In this document: one piece after another, positions 2,227-27,621 of the stretch
How positions within the stretch are numbered: the stretch's first letter is position 1
Layout: each line of letters begins with the position of its first letter
Assembly (NCBI GenBank): GCA_002816715.1
Contig: MUCJ01000002.1
Span: 1-37,583 of the forward strand
DNA: 37,583 nucleotides
From: SAR202 cluster bacterium Casp-Chloro-G3
GTDB lineage: Bacteria; Chloroflexota; Dehalococcoidia; Lucifugimonadales; UBA3495
Reading direction: 5' to 3'
Notes under the pieces: generated by a model
Seen by the model: only the letters and a program-made list of their open reading frames with translations
Databases searched by the model: none
Told to the model about the DNA's origin: nothing
Program-made: the position numbers and the translations under genes

Positions 2227-3213
2227 CTAGTTGGGCGTTATCGCCATCGACCGTACTTCGCCAAACTCCTTCTTCAGCTTGGCCCATGAGTCTCCGCCGT
2301 CCTCGCTGACATAGACGTAGCCGTAAAGACTGGCAGCCGCTATCACGTTGGGCCGCTCCGGGTGAGTCCCGAACCAGTAAATCACCGAGTTAGGTTCGAC
2401 CGGCAGCGGGGCCACATCCCAAGTCTGCCCGGCGTTTTTAGTGCGACGAATGGCTCCGGTGACTCCGGGAATAAAATCGCCGTTGCCCACGAACATTACG
2501 TCGGGATTGTCGTGTTTGAGGGCCATGCCTCGACAGTAGGATCGGTTGTCCCCTTCGTTAAATTTGGGAAACTCATGGTAGTCCCAGCTTTCACCTTCGT
2601 CGGTGCTGGTGGCGATGCCAAAGGGGCTGGTCACGTATACCGAAGTCTGCCGACCGGGTTTAATCATCATTCCGTGAACGTCGCCGTGGAAGGGGTCTGG
2701 GCCCAACTCCGGCAGATGCACCCAGCTATCGCCGCCATCCAGGCTCTTGTAAACTCCGTCCACCTCAATACCGGCCCAGATGGTGCGGTGGTCGCGGGGG
2801 TCAACGATGACGTTGGTGGTGCGGGGGATACCCACGGGGCAAGGGACGGTCACCCCCAGGGACAGCTTTTCCCAGTTTTTTCCGCCGTCTTTGGAACGAA
2901 AAGCGTCGGGCCGCGTTCCGGCAAAAATGGTGTTGCTGTCTTCTGGGTCTACCGCCACCGACCAGGTCTGAATATTGTCGTCCATCGGCGACTCCAGGTG
3001 TTCCCAGTTGACGCCGTTATCGTTGCTACGGAAGATGCCCAGATCGGAACCGGCAATTATCCGGTGGGGGTCGTCGGGATAGACCGTCAAGGCCCGGACA
3101 TTACATTCAGAGGGCAACGGATTCCTCACCCGGTTCCAAGTGTCCCCGCCATCGGGACTGTAAGAGAGGCCACCGCCAACGCACCCTACAAAAATAGTGT
3201 AATCCTTCTCCAT
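2227..3213 (-). CDS. Seven-Asp-box (BNR) beta-propeller protein
   Basis: This 328-residue protein contains seven Asp-box (BNR) motifs of the form S-x-D-x-G-x-x-W, at 19-26, 63-70, 107-114, 157-164, 203-210, 258-265 (degenerate, TKNAGQTW) and 303-310. The spacing is 44-55 residues. This predicts a seven-bladed propeller of the sialidase, Vps10 or xyloglucanase-like fold that covers the whole protein. The catalytic Arg triad and Glu/Tyr of true sialidases are not recognisable, so an enzyme activity should not be assumed; a binding scaffold is equally possible. I chose ATG 3213 over the upstream in-frame ATG 3243 because GAGAGGAGG (3222-3230) lies 8 bases before it. There is no signal peptide, so it appears cytoplasmic, unusual for this fold. 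It stands alone as a transcription unit. Confidence 0.85.
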   Translation of the reverse strand: MEKDYTIFVGCVGGGLSYSPDGGDTWNRVRNPLPSECNVRALTVYPDDPHRIIAGSDLGIFRSNDNGVNWEHLESPMDDNIQTWSVAVDPEDSNTIFAGTRPDAFRSKDGGKNWEKLSLGVTVPCPVGIPRTTNVIVDPRDHRTIWAGIEVDGVYKSLDGGDSWVHLPELGPDPFHGDVHGMMIKPGRQTSVYVTSPFGIATSTDEGESWDYHEFPKFNEGDNRSYCRGMALKHDNPDVMFVGNGDFIPGVTGAIRRTKNAGQTWDVAPLPVEPNSVIYWFGTHPERPNVIAAASLYGYVYVSEDGGDSWAKLKKEFGEVRSMAITPN

Positions 3214-3563
3214 TTCAACATCCTCCTCTCGGTGGAAATACATACCAATCTCCAGGTATGAGGGTATAATAGCCCCAAGTTAGGGGAATTGCTACCAGCA
3301 AACCGACAGATTGGTTTTTTCTGGTCTTGGAATCTCTTACTATTTGCATGTACGGGGCGGTATACTCCCAACGCCATCTGCCTTAGGGGTTCGCTATCGC
3401 AAAACATGGTTCGACAAGCCCGTCCTGAGCTTGCCGAAGGGTTTGCCATGAGCGGTGGCGCGCCTCCGGTCCGCTCATTCTGAGCCTGTAGAAGGATAAT
3501 TTTCTTCAAGCAGCAGAGTTTTGAGATGGATTTAAAATTGTTAATCCCTGAGAATAGCTTCTA
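3214..3563. other. Divergent intergenic region with repeat
   Basis: The gap lies between the leftward propeller gene and the rightward peptidase pseudogene. It holds a family 2 dispersed repeat (3405-3495) and a small GC dyad, CCCC-N6-GGGG, around 3273-3286. A TATAAT-like box at 3265-3270 has no good partner hexamer. No gene is supported here. Confidence 0.5.
3405..3495. repeat. Dispersed palindromic repeat, family 2, copy A
   Basis: It begins GGTTCGACAAGCC, continues CTGAGCTTGCCGAAGGG, has a central ATGAGCGG...CCGCTCAT dyad, and ends CTGAGCCTGTAGAAGGA. The outer and inner parts are mutually complementary, so the element can fold as a long hairpin. Related copies are at 6209-6262 (partial), 21902-21968 and 25036-25122. 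Confidence 0.8.
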
Positions 3564-5489
3564 ATGTTTGACCAGCTAGTAAATATATTGCGTCGATTTT
3601 TTGGGTGGAGGCCTGATATGCCCTCTAATACCACGCTAACGCCGGAGACACCTAATGAGCCGGCCACCAAACGTGACTCCCTGGACTTTCGGGATTTGAT
3701 TTATCGGCCTGCTCTCGTCCGTCTGGAAGACGAGTTGCTGCCCAACAAAGAATACCTTAAGCCATTAGATCAAGGCAGAGAGGGAGCTTGCACCGGGTTC
3801 GGTCTGGCGGCGGTGATCAACTACCTGCTGCGCGCTAGAGGGGTTTCATCAGAAGAGGCGGCAAGCCCCCGGATGCTTTATGAAATGGCCAAGCACCACG
3901 ACCAGTGACCCGGCGAAGACTACGAAGGCTCCAGCGCGCGAGGAGCCATGAAGGGGTGGCACAAGAACGGCGTGTGCACGGATACGGCGTGGCCCTACAA
4001 TCCCCAAGACGCTGGATTCCTGACCAGAGCACGACAGGAGAGCGCCCTCAAGTATCCTCTGGGAGCGTATTACCGGATACAGCGCAAGCGGTCTGACCTC
4101 CACGCCGCCCTCAACGAAACTCAGGTCGTTTTTGCCACCGCCCAAACCCACCCCGGCTGGCACAACCCGCAGGATGGGAAAATTCCGTTGGGGTAGGGAG
4201 AAGAAAATACTGGGGGACATGCCTTCGCGATTGTCGGTTATACCCAAGAGGGATTCATCATTCAGAACTCCTGGGGTGAAGGTTGGGGCGGAGTCACGGT
4301 CAAGGGCGTTACCTATCCGGGGTGCGTTATCTGGCAGTACGCCGATTTTGACCGTAACCTGTGGGACGCCTGGGTAGCTCGACTGGCCCTTCCTCTGGAG
4401 TCGATGGAGGCGCTGGCGGCCAGCACCACGCGATACACTGAGGGTCCGGGCGGCACCGAGGCTGCGCCCAACCTCAAGCCGCCGAGACCGACCATCCGGG
4501 AACACTACGTTCACATTGACGATGGGCACTTCGACAACTCGGGCGATTATTATTCCAACCCGGGAGAAGTTCAGCAGATCATCAAGGATGTTTTAGAAGA
4601 CAAGCCCGCTCATATTTTGCTATTTGCTCACGGTGGACTCAACTCGGTCAGCAGCGGGGCGGCCCGGGTTGGGCAGTGGCGTCAGGTTTTCAAGGCCAAC
4701 GGTATCCACGAAATCCACTTTATCTGGGAGACCGGCTTCACTGAGGAGTTGGCCGATATACTGCGGGCCAAACTTGGCCTGGCGGAACGGCGGGCCTCCG
4801 GGTTCAGCGGCTGGTGGGACAGTGTCCTGGAGCGGTTTGCCCAGCCGGTAGGGTCGGCTCTCTGGACGGAGATGCAGTGGGACGCGGAACGGGCTTTCCA
4901 GCCAGGTAACGCGGGAGACCAGTTCGTGGCCTGGTTGATTGAGGGCATGAAACAAATGCCCGCCGGGGAGCGACCGCAGATACAATTGGTGGGACACAGA
5001 GCTGGTTCCATCTTGCAGGGACATCTGCTAAAAAGCTGGCAGCGCAACGGCGGGACACCCGTCAGCAACCTGATATTGTTTGCTCCGGCCTGCACCCATC
5101 AGTTCTTTGGTTCCAGTATCAAGCCCGCGCTGGCAGATTCGACGCTGCGCCAGCTTCATCATTTCCTGCTGGACGACAAAGCTGAGCAGGAAGATAACGT
5201 TGCCAATATTTACCGAAAGTCGCTGTTGTACCTGGTGCCCCGGTCTTTTCAGAGCAGAGACGGCACGGTGCCCATCCTGGGTATGGAGAAATATTTGGAG
5301 CAACTGGATTGTTCTGGGATTCAGGATCGGGTGGAGCACTATACGCCGTCGAAAAGGTCCGATTTCACCGCCACCAACTCTCACGGCGGCTTTGACGACG
5401 ACGAAACCACCATGAACTCCATGCTAAAGCTGGTATTGGGTCGAGAGCCGGACCATAAATTTGACGGCGGCAGCCTGAGTGGGTACTGA
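3564..5489 (+). pseudogene. C1-family peptidase / alpha-beta hydrolase fusion, two nonsense codons
   Basis: One reading frame runs from ATG 3564 to TGA 5487-5489 and is interrupted only by TGA 3906-3908 (codon 115) and TAG 4194-4196 (codon 211). There is no frameshift. Residues 50-250 form a papain-like (C1) peptidase: Gln70 and Cys76 in DQGREGACTGFG, His219 in GGHAFAIVGY, and Asn235 in QNSWGEGWG, so the triad itself is preserved. Residues about 290-640 resemble an alpha/beta hydrolase: HILLFAHGG, then a nucleophile-elbow-like VGHRAGS in which the usual Ser is Arg479 (AGA, 4998-5000). TGA and TAG serve as normal stops in neighbouring genes, so the code looks standard. I read it as a recently disabled gene or consensus errors. 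The intact C-terminal part could be made from ATG 4404 (361 residues), but I see no clear ribosome-binding site there. No signal peptide is visible. Confidence 0.8.
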
Positions 5490-5523
5490 GTGAGGTTGAG
5501 TACAGATAAGTAAGCAAGAAACC

Positions 5524-6057
5524 GTGGGGTCTACCCACAAATTCTGTCCCACCTGCGGATACCGATTACAGCTAAGATTGCGTGGAGATCGAGAACGGCT
5601 GGTCTGCACTGGGTGCGACTCCATCCTGTACCGCAATCCGGCGGTGGGCGTGGCGGTGGTGCTGGTGCAAGACCGGCAGGTCTTGCTGGGTCGGCGCGCT
5701 CGCGGTGAGTATCAAGGTCACTGGTGTATCCCCTGCGGTTACGTTGAATGGGGCGAGGACGTGCGGGACGCAGCCAGGCGGGAGTTGTTGGAGGAGACGG
5801 GATTGAAGGTGGCACTCGGGCCGGTTTACTCCGTCCATTCCAACTTTCACAACCCAGGGTCGTTAACGGTGGGCATCTGGTTCTGGGGGCAGGTTTGCGG
5901 TGGCAAGCTTGAAGCCGGTGATGATCTGGATGCCGTGGATTATTTTCCTATCGACGCTCTGCCCGAGCCGATAGCTTTTCCCACCGACCTGCTGGTGCTG
6001 GAACAATTGCTGTCGGATTTCCCATATCTTCCCGGCGGCGACTCCGTGACCAAGTAG
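5524..6057 (+). CDS. Nudix hydrolase with N-terminal zinc ribbon
   Basis: A 177-residue pyrophosphohydrolase. The Nudix box is complete, G72-x5-E78-x7-R86-E87-x2-E90-E91-x-G93, which binds the catalytic Mg ions. Before it lie two CxxC pairs (C8/C11 and C28/C31) forming a rubredoxin-like zinc ribbon, an arrangement shared with NudC-type NAD pyrophosphatases and many ADP-ribose or nucleotide hydrolases; the protein is too short for full NudC. The substrate is probably a nucleoside diphosphate derivative. The start is GTG 5524 with no good Shine-Dalgarno. It lies 34 bases after the stop of the peptidase pseudogene and may have been translated from the same message. Confidence 0.85.
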   Translation: MGSTHKFCPTCGYRLQLRLRGDRERLVCTGCDSILYRNPAVGVAVVLVQDRQVLLGRRARGEYQGHWCIPCGYVEWGEDVRDAARRELLEETGLKVALGPVYSVHSNFHNPGSLTVGIWFWGQVCGGKLEAGDDLDAVDYFPIDALPEPIAFPTDLLVLEQLLSDFPYLPGGDSVTK

Positions 6058-16953: not shown

Positions 16954-19272
16954 ATGGATAGCCTGGGAGAAATCGCTCAGTTAATTCAAGTATGTACTGA
17001 CTGCCCGCTCCACGAAGGACGTACCAACAGTGTCCCGGGGGAGGGAGCGTCCGACGCCGAGATTCTGTTCATCGGCGAAGGGCCGGGCTATCAGGAAGAC
17101 CGGCAAGGGAGACCCTTTGTTGGCCCGGCCGGGCATTTTTTGGAAGAATTACTGAAGTCGATCGGACTCACCCGCCAGCAAGTATTTATCGCCAACATGG
17201 TCAAGTGCCGTCCTCCGCAGAATCGAGACCCGGCTCCCGCTGAAATGGAGGCCTGCAGCAAGTACTTGGACCGGCAAATAGAACTCATCGACCCGAACCT
17301 GATCGTGACCCTGGGACGCTTCTCCCTGGCCAGGTTTTTCCCTGGCGAGACCATCAGCCGCGCCAGAGGCCGATTGCGGCAGCAGAACGGGCGATACGTC
17401 TATCCGATTATGCACCCGGCAGCGGCGCTGCACCGGCAAGAATTTCGGGCCACCATCACCGAAGACTTCAAGGCCATACCGGCTATTTTGGAAAAGGTGA
17501 GACAGGCCCCGGCCCTGGTTACCGAGGCTGTGCCGGAGGAAATGCCACCCCCAGAACAGCTAGCTCTTTTTGAGGAATTATTCTTGACATTGAATCCTAC
17601 TTCTAATTCAACTGCTAATCCTACTCTGCGCGTAATACCCCTGGGCGGTCTGGGGGAAATCGGTAAAAACATGATGGCCCTGGAGTGCGGCAACGATATC
17701 ATAGTCGTTGACTGCGGGGTCCAGTTTCCCACTGAGGACTTGCTGGGAGTAGACCTCATCATCCCGGACATCTCTTACCTGGTGGAAAACGTTGATCGAG
17801 TGCGGGCCATCCTGATCACCCACGGGCACGAAGACCACATCGGCGCATTGCCCTTCGTTTTGCCGCAACTCAATGTGCCGGTCTACGCCCCTAGATTGGC
17901 GCATGGCTTAATTTCGGTCAAGCTCAAGGAGCGAGCCGCTTCTCGAGGCGCCACCGCCGAAGCGATTGAACCCAACCAGACCTACCAGTTTGGCGAAAAC
18001 TTTAAAGCTACTTGGTTCCGCGTCTGCCATAGCATCCCCGACGCTATGGGCATTGCTATCGAGACTCCGTTGGGCACGGTAATCCACACTGGCGACTTCA
18101 AGATAGACCACACCCCAGTGGATGGACACACCATTGACCTGGCGGCATTGGCCGAGAGGGGATCTAAGGGCGTGCTGCTTCTTTGCTCCGACTCTACCTA
18201 TGCTGAGCTGGCCGGTTTCACTCCGTCAGAGCAGATCATGAGCGAAGCGCTGAATCGGGCCATCGGTGACGCCGAGGGCCGGGTGATTGTGGCGACCTTC
18301 GCGTCGCTGATCTCCCGCATACAGCAGGTGATCCATGCGGCCCACCTGCATAATCGCAAGGTGGGTATCGTGGGCCGCAGCATGGTGGACAATGTCAACA
18401 TGGCCGCCGAAATGGGGTACCTGGATATTCCTGAAGGCACCCTGATTTCGCTCAACCAGGCCCGCAACCTTCCCCCGGAACAGGTGGTGCTGATGAGCAC
18501 CGGCAGCCAGGGTGAGCCTACTTCTGCGCTGGTTCGCATTGCCAACCAGGAACATCGGGATGTGCGCGCTCTCCCCGGCGACACTGTAATAATATCGGCC
18601 ACGCCCATTCCAGGCAACGAGTTACTGGTCAGCCGTACCATCGACAAATTGTTGCGTCAGGGTGCCAAGGTGCTGCACGACCGGGTGGCGCTGGTGCACG
18701 TCCACGGGCACGCCAGCCAGGAAGAGCTGAAAATCATGCTCAGCCTGGTGCGCCCCAAGTATTTTGTGCCGGTGCATGGCGAATACCGTCACCTGATGGC
18801 CCACGCCAAGCTGGCCTGGGATATGGGTGTCGCTGAGTCGGGAATATTCGTTCTGGTGGATGGCGACGTTCTGGAACTCTCCGAGAAGGGCGGCCAAGTG
18901 GTGGACACGGTATCCGCCGGGCCGATCTACATCGACGGTCTGACCACCCATGATACCTCCAGCGAGGTGCTTCGTGACCGCCGCGCTCTGTCCCGGGATG
19001 GCGTCGTCACGGTGGTATTGTCAATCGACAGTGCAACCGGTTTGCTCACCAGCAGCCCCAAGATTGTCGCCAGCGGCTTTATGGAGCAGGCCCAGGTTAT
19101 ACCGATTTTTGATGCCCTCGGTGTTGAGATCGAAAGGGTAATATCCGAGAAACCGGAGATGCTTGACGACCCGGAATCAGTCAAGTCGCAGGTCAGGGAG
19201 CTCACCCGTAAATTCCTCTACAATGAGACCCACCGCCGCCCCATGGTGATTACGGTAGTCCTGGAAATTTAG
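16954..19272 (+). CDS. rnj: Uracil-DNA glycosylase (family 4) fused to ribonuclease J
   Basis: One uninterrupted 772-codon frame encodes two complete enzymes. Residues 1-190 are an iron-sulfur uracil-DNA glycosylase: C14 and C17, GEGPG (41-45), PFVGPAG (54-60), C85 and C101, and MHPAAALHR (153-161). Residues 225-772 are a full-length RNase J with the metallo-beta-lactamase motif H290-G-H292-E-D294-H295, D381 in HTGDFK, the beta-CASP domain, and H608 in PVHGEYRH. A polar linker rich in N, T and S (211-224) joins them. ATG 16954 follows GGAGGG by 5 bases. A possible internal start, TTG 17584, has GAGGAA six bases before it and would give a separate 562-residue RNase J. RNase J acts in mRNA decay and rRNA maturation, the glycosylase in repair of deaminated cytosine. 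ftsK lies downstream. Confidence 0.9.
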   Translation: MDSLGEIAQLIQVCTDCPLHEGRTNSVPGEGASDAEILFIGEGPGYQEDRQGRPFVGPAGHFLEELLKSIGLTRQQVFIANMVKCRPPQNRDPAPAEMEACSKYLDRQIELIDPNLIVTLGRFSLARFFPGETISRARGRLRQQNGRYVYPIMHPAAALHRQEFRATITEDFKAIPAILEKVRQAPALVTEAVPEEMPPPEQLALFEELFLTLNPTSNSTANPTLRVIPLGGLGEIGKNMMALECGNDIIVVDCGVQFPTEDLLGVDLIIPDISYLVENVDRVRAILITHGHEDHIGALPFVLPQLNVPVYAPRLAHGLISVKLKERAASRGATAEAIEPNQTYQFGENFKATWFRVCHSIPDAMGIAIETPLGTVIHTGDFKIDHTPVDGHTIDLAALAERGSKGVLLLCSDSTYAELAGFTPSEQIMSEALNRAIGDAEGRVIVATFASLISRIQQVIHAAHLHNRKVGIVGRSMVDNVNMAAEMGYLDIPEGTLISLNQARNLPPEQVVLMSTGSQGEPTSALVRIANQEHRDVRALPGDTVIISATPIPGNELLVSRTIDKLLRQGAKVLHDRVALVHVHGHASQEELKIMLSLVRPKYFVPVHGEYRHLMAHAKLAWDMGVAESGIFVLVDGDVLELSEKGGQVVDTVSAGPIYIDGLTTHDTSSEVLRDRRALSRDGVVTVVLSIDSATGLLTSSPKIVASGFMEQAQVIPIFDALGVEIERVISEKPEMLDDPESVKSQVRELTRKFLYNETHRRPMVITVVLEI

Positions 19273-25035: not shown

Positions 25036-25122
25036 TTGAGCCCTTCGGCAGGCTGAGGACGAGCGGATCCCCCGCTCATGGTGAGCCCTTCGGCAAGCTC
25101 AGGACAGGCTTGTCGAACCATA
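25036..25122. repeat. Dispersed palindromic repeat, family 2, copy C (inverted)
   Basis: In reverse complement it reads ATGGTTCGACAAGCCTGTCC, then CTGAGCTTGCCGAAGGGCTC, CATGAGCGG...CCGCTCG, and CAGCCTGCCGAAGGGCTCAA, closely matching copy A at 3405-3495. It fills most of the gap between holA and the epimerase gene; the rest of that gap (24844-25152) holds nothing I recognise apart from the holA leader. Confidence 0.8.
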
Positions 25123-26802: not shown

Positions 26803-27621
26803 CTACTTGTTCGTCGTGGAGGTTTTGGGTTGACCTCCTACTTTGACTATAGCGTTGGTTAGATCTTGTTGCCTGGGGTTCTTTTGAAATCGGAAGCAAA
26901 CCATGATCAAGAACGAAAAAAAGAAAAATGCCGTTATCGAACCAAAAATTATTGGGATCCAAGGTAATGAGGGTTTCCATGCCGTGATTTGGAATGGAAG
27001 TAAGCAGAAAACAATGCCTGTAGTCAGGATAAAAATCAGTACGCCAATGTCGATACGACCATGTCCGCGTGTTCCAACTCGTCGATTTTGTACCAATTCT
27101 TTAACTGCCGCCACACGTTGTTCATCAGTCAATCTAGCGGTTGACGAGAAAATCTGTCTAGTAGGTGTTACAACCCTTCGCAAGTATCCGCTGATCCCAC
27201 GCTCTGTGGGTACATTCAACGAAGTCTCATAACTCAAAAGTTCTGGATATAAATCGACTACTTGATTATCAAACCAATGGCTGTACCAACGAAACAAGAG
27301 TAAAAAGATCGAGGAAGTACCTGCTGCGACGGCTAAAATAGCAAATTCGATAGGCTCCTGAGCCTTCCTGGACAACGCTCCGTCGATAAATACACCAATT
27401 GCTAATGTCCAGACTGCGGAGGTAAGAGCCAACCCATAGCCAAAGAAGTTGTTCATTCGGTCCACCAGAGAATTCCTGAACTGATAAGTGACTTGAAGCA
27501 TTGTACGCAGATTCTCGTCGCTCATGACCTCACTTCCCATCGGCTTCCTTGACCTTTGCTTTTCCCGGAGTAGACAGAGAATTATTCCTGTGATTCCCGA
27601 TAGAATAGCGAAGCGTAACAA
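26803..27621 (-). CDS. Unknown multi-spanning membrane protein
   Basis: I do not recognise this protein. From TTG 27621 it has 272 residues with hydrophobic segments near 4-18, 59-80, 92-112, 190-210 and 220-243. The charged loop 115-188, rich in Arg, Glu and Thr, is probably cytoplasmic. The tail 246-272 is polar. TTG 27621 has AGGGGG five bases upstream and lies only 9 bases after the mutase stop; ATG 27540, with AAGGA five bases upstream, is the alternative and would drop the first segment. The region is clearly AT-richer than its neighbours: a hand count at 26881-27060 gives 71 of 180 GC, against 35 of 60 at 28021-28080. It may be a recent insertion into the mutase operon. Confidence 0.7.
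   Translation of the reverse strand: MLRFAILSGITGIILCLLREKQRSRKPMGSEVMSDENLRTMLQVTYQFRNSLVDRMNNFFGYGLALTSAVWTLAIGVFIDGALSRKAQEPIEFAILAVAAGTSSIFLLLFRWYSHWFDNQVVDLYPELLSYETSLNVPTERGISGYLRRVVTPTRQIFSSTARLTDEQRVAAVKELVQNRRVGTRGHGRIDIGVLIFILTTGIVFCLLPFQITAWKPSLPWIPIIFGSITAFFFFSFLIMVCFRFQKNPRQQDLTNAIVKVGGQPKTSTTNK

Follow-up and report, generated by a model that had tools for sequence, protein, structure and literature searches.

The window, a 37,583-nucleotide stretch of contig MUCJ01000002.1 from SAR202 cluster bacterium Casp-Chloro-G3, carries at 3564–5489 (+ strand, as for all features of this gene given below) a broken gene for a papain-like C1 peptidase with a C-terminal alpha/beta hydrolase. 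Translation gives a single frame of 641 codons (642 counting the terminal stop) from ATG 3564 to TGA 5487–5489, free of indels and interrupted by TGA at codon 115 (3906–3908) and TAG at codon 211 (4194–4196), as the original prediction had described it. The frame is not a product of chance: tblastn aligns it with 93 loci, always in a single hit and a single frame and in 90 cases over nearly the full length, and the peptidase profile match spans both stops. That match, to the Pfam Peptidase_C1 (papain) family, covers codons 69–242 (3768–4289; PF00112, 2.2e-8, 34.9 bits against a cut-off of 20.7) and was obtained with X placed at both stops, which break the open reading frame across the domain. 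The peptidase nucleophile Cys76 (3789–3791) and the other triad residues, His219 (4218–4220) and Asn235 (4266–4268), are intact, and each is found in all 91 homologues that cover it (2 of the 93 tblastn loci do not cover these columns). An N-domain model of an intact homologue (L012), on which the papain fold was assessed rather than on the broken gene, superposes on xylellain, the nearest solved structure (3ois; Z 28.2, rmsd 2.8, 235 aligned), and the papain resemblance of this homologue is also seen by sequence. The window gene is thus like the papain-like C1 peptidases (PF00112, xylellain 3ois) in its Cys/His/Asn triad, its profile match and its homologue's fold, whereas it differs from them by two internal stops and a fused second enzyme domain. 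Prokaryotic multidomain C1A peptidases were left without more detailed analysis in one study, according to the part of it available (PMC10380794).

The second enzyme domain, which had been missed in the original prediction, is an alpha/beta hydrolase at 4503–5486. An AlphaFold model of this stretch, folded together with 25 homologues, has a pLDDT of 89.7 and a pTM of 0.90, and the top PDB rows retrieved with it are mostly alpha/beta hydrolases (best Z 11.6, 9bld, rmsd 4.1, 207 aligned, many rows being tied); Foldseek alone returned nothing for the same model at E≤0.001, its best match being at 1.4e-3. Resemblance to DUF900/Abhydrolase_9 is weak and below the cut-off, and no Pfam model exceeds its own cut-off in this domain. 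Residue 479, which is Ser in all 92 covering homologues and Arg in the window (4998–5000), corresponds to model residue 166, in the turn between strand 159–165 and helix 168–181. In the alpha/beta hydrolase fold the nucleophile usually sits at such a strand-turn-helix turn. The domain therefore resembles alpha/beta hydrolases in fold and nucleophile position but has Arg for the Ser nucleophile, and belongs with them through descent and fold but not through chemistry. An earlier claim that the catalytic triad is intact accordingly stands for Cys76, His219 and Asn235 of the peptidase and fails for the hydrolase domain. The model places S479R in a predicted catalytic site separate from that of the peptidase, i.e., as a third lesion independent of the stops. 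Nearby, codon 474 (4983–4985) encodes Gln in place of a His present in 90 of 90 aligned homologues; E228, D231 and H294, invariant in alignment A4, are candidates for the acid and His of the hydrolase triad. Separately, a gene on a Kovacikia (cyanobacterial) plasmid (L008, 3200–6184) holds a related hydrolase-like stretch between amidase and caspase domains, an arrangement suggesting that the domain also occurs in other combinations.

All 90 aligned homologues, i.e., the 93 tblastn loci minus three partial or single-domain ones (L008, L094 and L095), are fusions of a papain-like peptidase and an alpha/beta hydrolase, the nearest being 54–55% identical to the window gene. Searching genome contigs with the alignment as query gave at least 576 relatives, of which the best 80 were kept, and searching them with the C-terminal protein alone gave none. 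Fifteen plasmid records contained a match; ten were taken and the nine full-length ones aligned (31–36% identical). These plasmid genes, rhizobial and other, are annotated as 'C1 family peptidase' (WP_080711060.1, WP_155247562.1) and share the two-domain architecture of the window gene, but have intact frames and the Ser nucleophile. No model in Pfam, NCBIfam or PADLOC describes the fusion as one unit: a PADLOC search of three proteins had no match, and the single NCBIfam match scored 15.7 bits where the cut-off is 307. Among the neighbors of 23 homologue loci, no family recurred at three loci or more, apart from what three Pseudomonas loci have in common. Phage records searched with the C-terminal 361 residues yielded no match. 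One contig filed as viral in IMG/VR contains a near full-length relative (L128, 4001–6097; 31% identity over the best segment, residues 36–626), which may be virus-borne or may reflect a mis-filed contig. A literature search for the peptidase-hydrolase fusion found nothing, which leaves printed accounts possible.

Two other loci of the window were examined in passing. At 16954–19272 (+), one 772-residue frame combines a uracil-DNA glycosylase (PF03167) with ribonuclease J. Thirty of the 39 relatives searched have two or three separate matches for these parts; one-stretch matches in two relatives (G005 and G063) have stop codons between the parts, and two others (G012, 888 residues; G051, 785 residues) have both parts in the same open frame, such that fused frames of this kind seem to recur. 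At 26803–27621 (−), a 272-residue open frame has no Pfam match at 1e-5; the frame just upstream of it is one that we take to resemble methylmalonyl-CoA mutase.

Neither internal stop of the peptidase-hydrolase gene is shared with any homologue examined. At codon 115, 89 of the 91 covering homologues have Trp (one has Phe, one Thr) and none has a stop, in agreement with the original prediction that a Trp codon lies behind TGA 3906. The same derivation proposed for TAG 4194 does not hold: codon 211 falls in a variable loop preceding the catalytic His, where homologues have P, G, K, H, Q or others, a gap in 11 loci, never W, and no stop among the 80 with a residue there. A conserved split, which homologues with the same stops would have indicated, is likewise not borne out. 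The sole exception to intact frames among the 90 near full-length homologues is one (L050) with a different in-frame stop at about query residue 18, before the conserved domains.

The coincidence of TGA codon 115 with the Trp of homologues bears on low-level or programmed readthrough, by which TGA would be decoded as Trp and TAG by a suppressor to give a little full-length protein. Leaky TGA decoding puts in Trp in E. coli and Salmonella according to the available part of PMC7918605, which also argues that dN/dS stays under 1 for many in-frame stops of bacterial genes, and a release factor gene went undetected in this incomplete genome. However, the stops are common to no homologue, the RNA around both folds in an unexceptional way (four 81-nt stretches, z −0.42 to 1.62), giving no sign of a stimulatory structure, and an Rfam search of 3200–5600 at E≤1 matched no family. 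Readthrough would also have to pass two different stops, of which TAG is the commonest terminator in the window (18 of 28 other CDS), in a sequence whose 28 other CDS contain 102 TGG codons, and its product would still be without the hydrolase nucleophile. Readthrough is in our judgment highly improbable, in line with the remote standing that the original prediction had given its programmed form. Scarcely credible is an elaboration of it in which the two-stop frame serves as a throttle, leaky Trp insertion at TGA and a TAG suppressor yielding traces of a fused peptidase that now ends in a pseudo-hydrolase, in a genome with undetected release-factor genes.

Other possibilities concerning the stops were also considered. 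Against stop-codon reassignment, the 28 CDS end in TAG (18), TAA (6) and TGA (4) and use TGG as above, a pattern that holds partly by construction since they are open frames by the standard code. The RF-1 family had no match in the genome itself (66.67% complete), and among 29 other genomes drawn it had two matches in 26, one in 2 and none in 1, a relative listed as 97% complete (G061). As both TGA and TAG end genes here, the missing release factors are read as genome incompleteness. For selenocysteine insertion there is one weak SelA match (20.3 bits, 110 of 367 positions; the family cut-off of 22.8 bits is reached only with its neighbors in the frame), and this reading was put aside because homologues have Trp, not Cys, at the site. 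Finally, a codon-usage scan of the window and ten other stretches (194 kb) listed five candidate in-frame stops; the known two were not among them, and the scan was set aside because these score under its thresholds, a failed control.

Conservation along the gene was compared with that of the 90 near full-length homologues. The window gene departs at 2 of 47 fully invariant columns (H474Q and S479R), at 3 of 72 columns at the 97% level (W115 being added) and at 5 of 95 at the 95% threshold (W115, Y354, H474, S479 and S559). When each homologue was left out in turn, 4 of the 90 departed at two fully invariant columns and 9 at one, and at the 97% level 8 had between three and seven departures. 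Because intact homologues also leave invariant columns, the number of departures is, judged from the alignment, unremarkable, and what appears remarkable is their place. Under three simple mutation schemes, two nonsense changes roughly correspond to 38–50 random substitutions, or 2.0–2.6% of sites, a load expected by the same rough arithmetic to strike about two of the 47 invariant columns; two were observed. Identity to the eleven nearest homologues falls from 55–68% over codons 36–114 to 41–51% over codons 401–641, and among eight of these eleven the mean identity falls likewise, from 58% to 46%. Since the fall along the window gene resembles the homologues' own, a long period of decay after the stops is not indicated, and, stops aside, the protein of this gene still looks constrained.

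This nearly intact appearance of protein-level constraint also suits an error of assembly or consensus, or a draft that caught a minority strain variant, in which case the gene would be intact in most cells. The genome is a draft of 60 contigs (completeness 66.67), and assembly errors are behind many internal-stop pseudogenes according to the accessible portion of PMC11017572. Such an error would, however, need to account as well for one gene having lost both His474 and the hydrolase nucleophile. The 28 other CDS of the window, which were chosen as open frames and are uninterrupted partly by construction, have no internal stop in 9797 sense codons; all 21 of them that were scanned against Pfam match a family, mostly over nearly the whole profile. 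For two random nonsense errors spread over these CDS and the present gene, the chance of both falling in one gene is about 0.04. We regard error or strain variation as unlikely, and the independence of S479R from the stops makes a genuine young pseudogene more plausible than chance sequence errors.

Frame 3564–5489 is probably a recently inactivated gene, i.e., a young pseudogene. Very young pseudogene, population variant and sequence error had been listed earlier as the possible explanations, and this list was the right one; the young pseudogene takes first place in it because of the independent third lesion, S479R. Inactivating lesions unseen in covering homologues were taken as the mark of a pseudogene, and the two stops and S479R are of this kind; the absence of any indel speaks mildly against an old one. 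Translation would end after 114 residues, and the resulting fragment would retain Cys76 and be missing His219 and Asn235, such that it should have no peptidase activity; any C-terminal piece made by re-initiation would in turn be a hydrolase lacking the nucleophile. Two separate proteins might nonetheless have been retained in a functional split, with the C-terminal hydrolase-like domain (e.g., from ATG 4404) kept as a pseudoenzyme, since the 3′ frame runs open over 430 codons and the C-domain is predicted to fold alone. This is very unlikely: the C-domain is without a nucleophile that all 92 covering homologues have, the 90 aligned homologues show no split inside the domains, and the N-terminal piece would be the same incomplete peptidase.

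Recent inactivation, as the preferred reading, resembles what is described for young bacterial pseudogenes with premature stops. In the available part of a Salmonella survey (PMC2916853), 131 of 346 single-lesion pseudogenes have premature stops and 32 of 378 pseudogenes have more than one lesion. The window gene is like those covered there in having few lesions, stops among them, and a frame that is otherwise readable, but has two nonsense changes and an active-site missense change rather than one lesion. Gene decay here is ordinary and not a new mechanism. Searching the literature for pseudogenes in such genomes found nothing, which leaves room for printed accounts.

With regard to origin, the gene is present in one copy in its own genome, and a search with its C-terminal 361 residues at E≤1e-3 did not find it in 98 other genomes (49 of the family and 49 of the order). 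Within a class-level draw of 393 genomes including its own, four had a match at E≤1e-20, namely its own, G322 with a full-length copy, and two others with partial ones. The G322 copy had been flagged for stops inside (one TAG), a flag that was discarded upon reading the TAG as the terminal codon of that copy. A tree built by a quick method places the window gene in a 12-row clade (support 100) with Pseudomonadota, Planctomycetota, Calditrichota and unnamed rows; the same-class G322 falls apart from this clade, its own placement being unsure owing to its long branch. These comparisons suggest that the gene was probably acquired from an unrelated bacterium by horizontal transfer, and horizontal acquisition followed by decay fits best, because the gene was unfound in 98 relatives and groups with other phyla. 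A stand-alone C1 peptidase-alpha/beta hydrolase gene would have entered the lineage and been functional at first; selection on it would then have ceased, and two nonsense changes and a missense change removing the hydrolase nucleophile would have gathered, in unspecified order and as yet with no frameshift. Compositionally the gene is not foreign (GC 0.574 and third-position GC 0.669, vs means of 0.565 and 0.659 for the other genes). An empty-site comparison by synteny gave no result among relatives matching both flanking genes: the best flanking-gene matches lie about 345 kb and 151 kb apart in two single-contig relatives (G025 and G033, respectively) and on different contigs in draft relatives. 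Beside the broken gene lies a dispersed repeat near GTTCGACAAGCCYGTCCTGAGC (3409–3430, +), with a further copy at 25097–25118. It occurs at 11 genome sites at ≤3 mismatches, compared with 0 for a reversed-pattern control, which makes it less likely that the contig is a contaminant.

The locus is a clean instance of early gene decay in a draft genome after probable horizontal acquisition, and its missing nucleophile illustrates why inspection beyond the stops helps to separate decay from error. For the family, the window gene draws attention to a fusion of C1 peptidase and alpha/beta hydrolase that is widespread, with at least 576 relatives.
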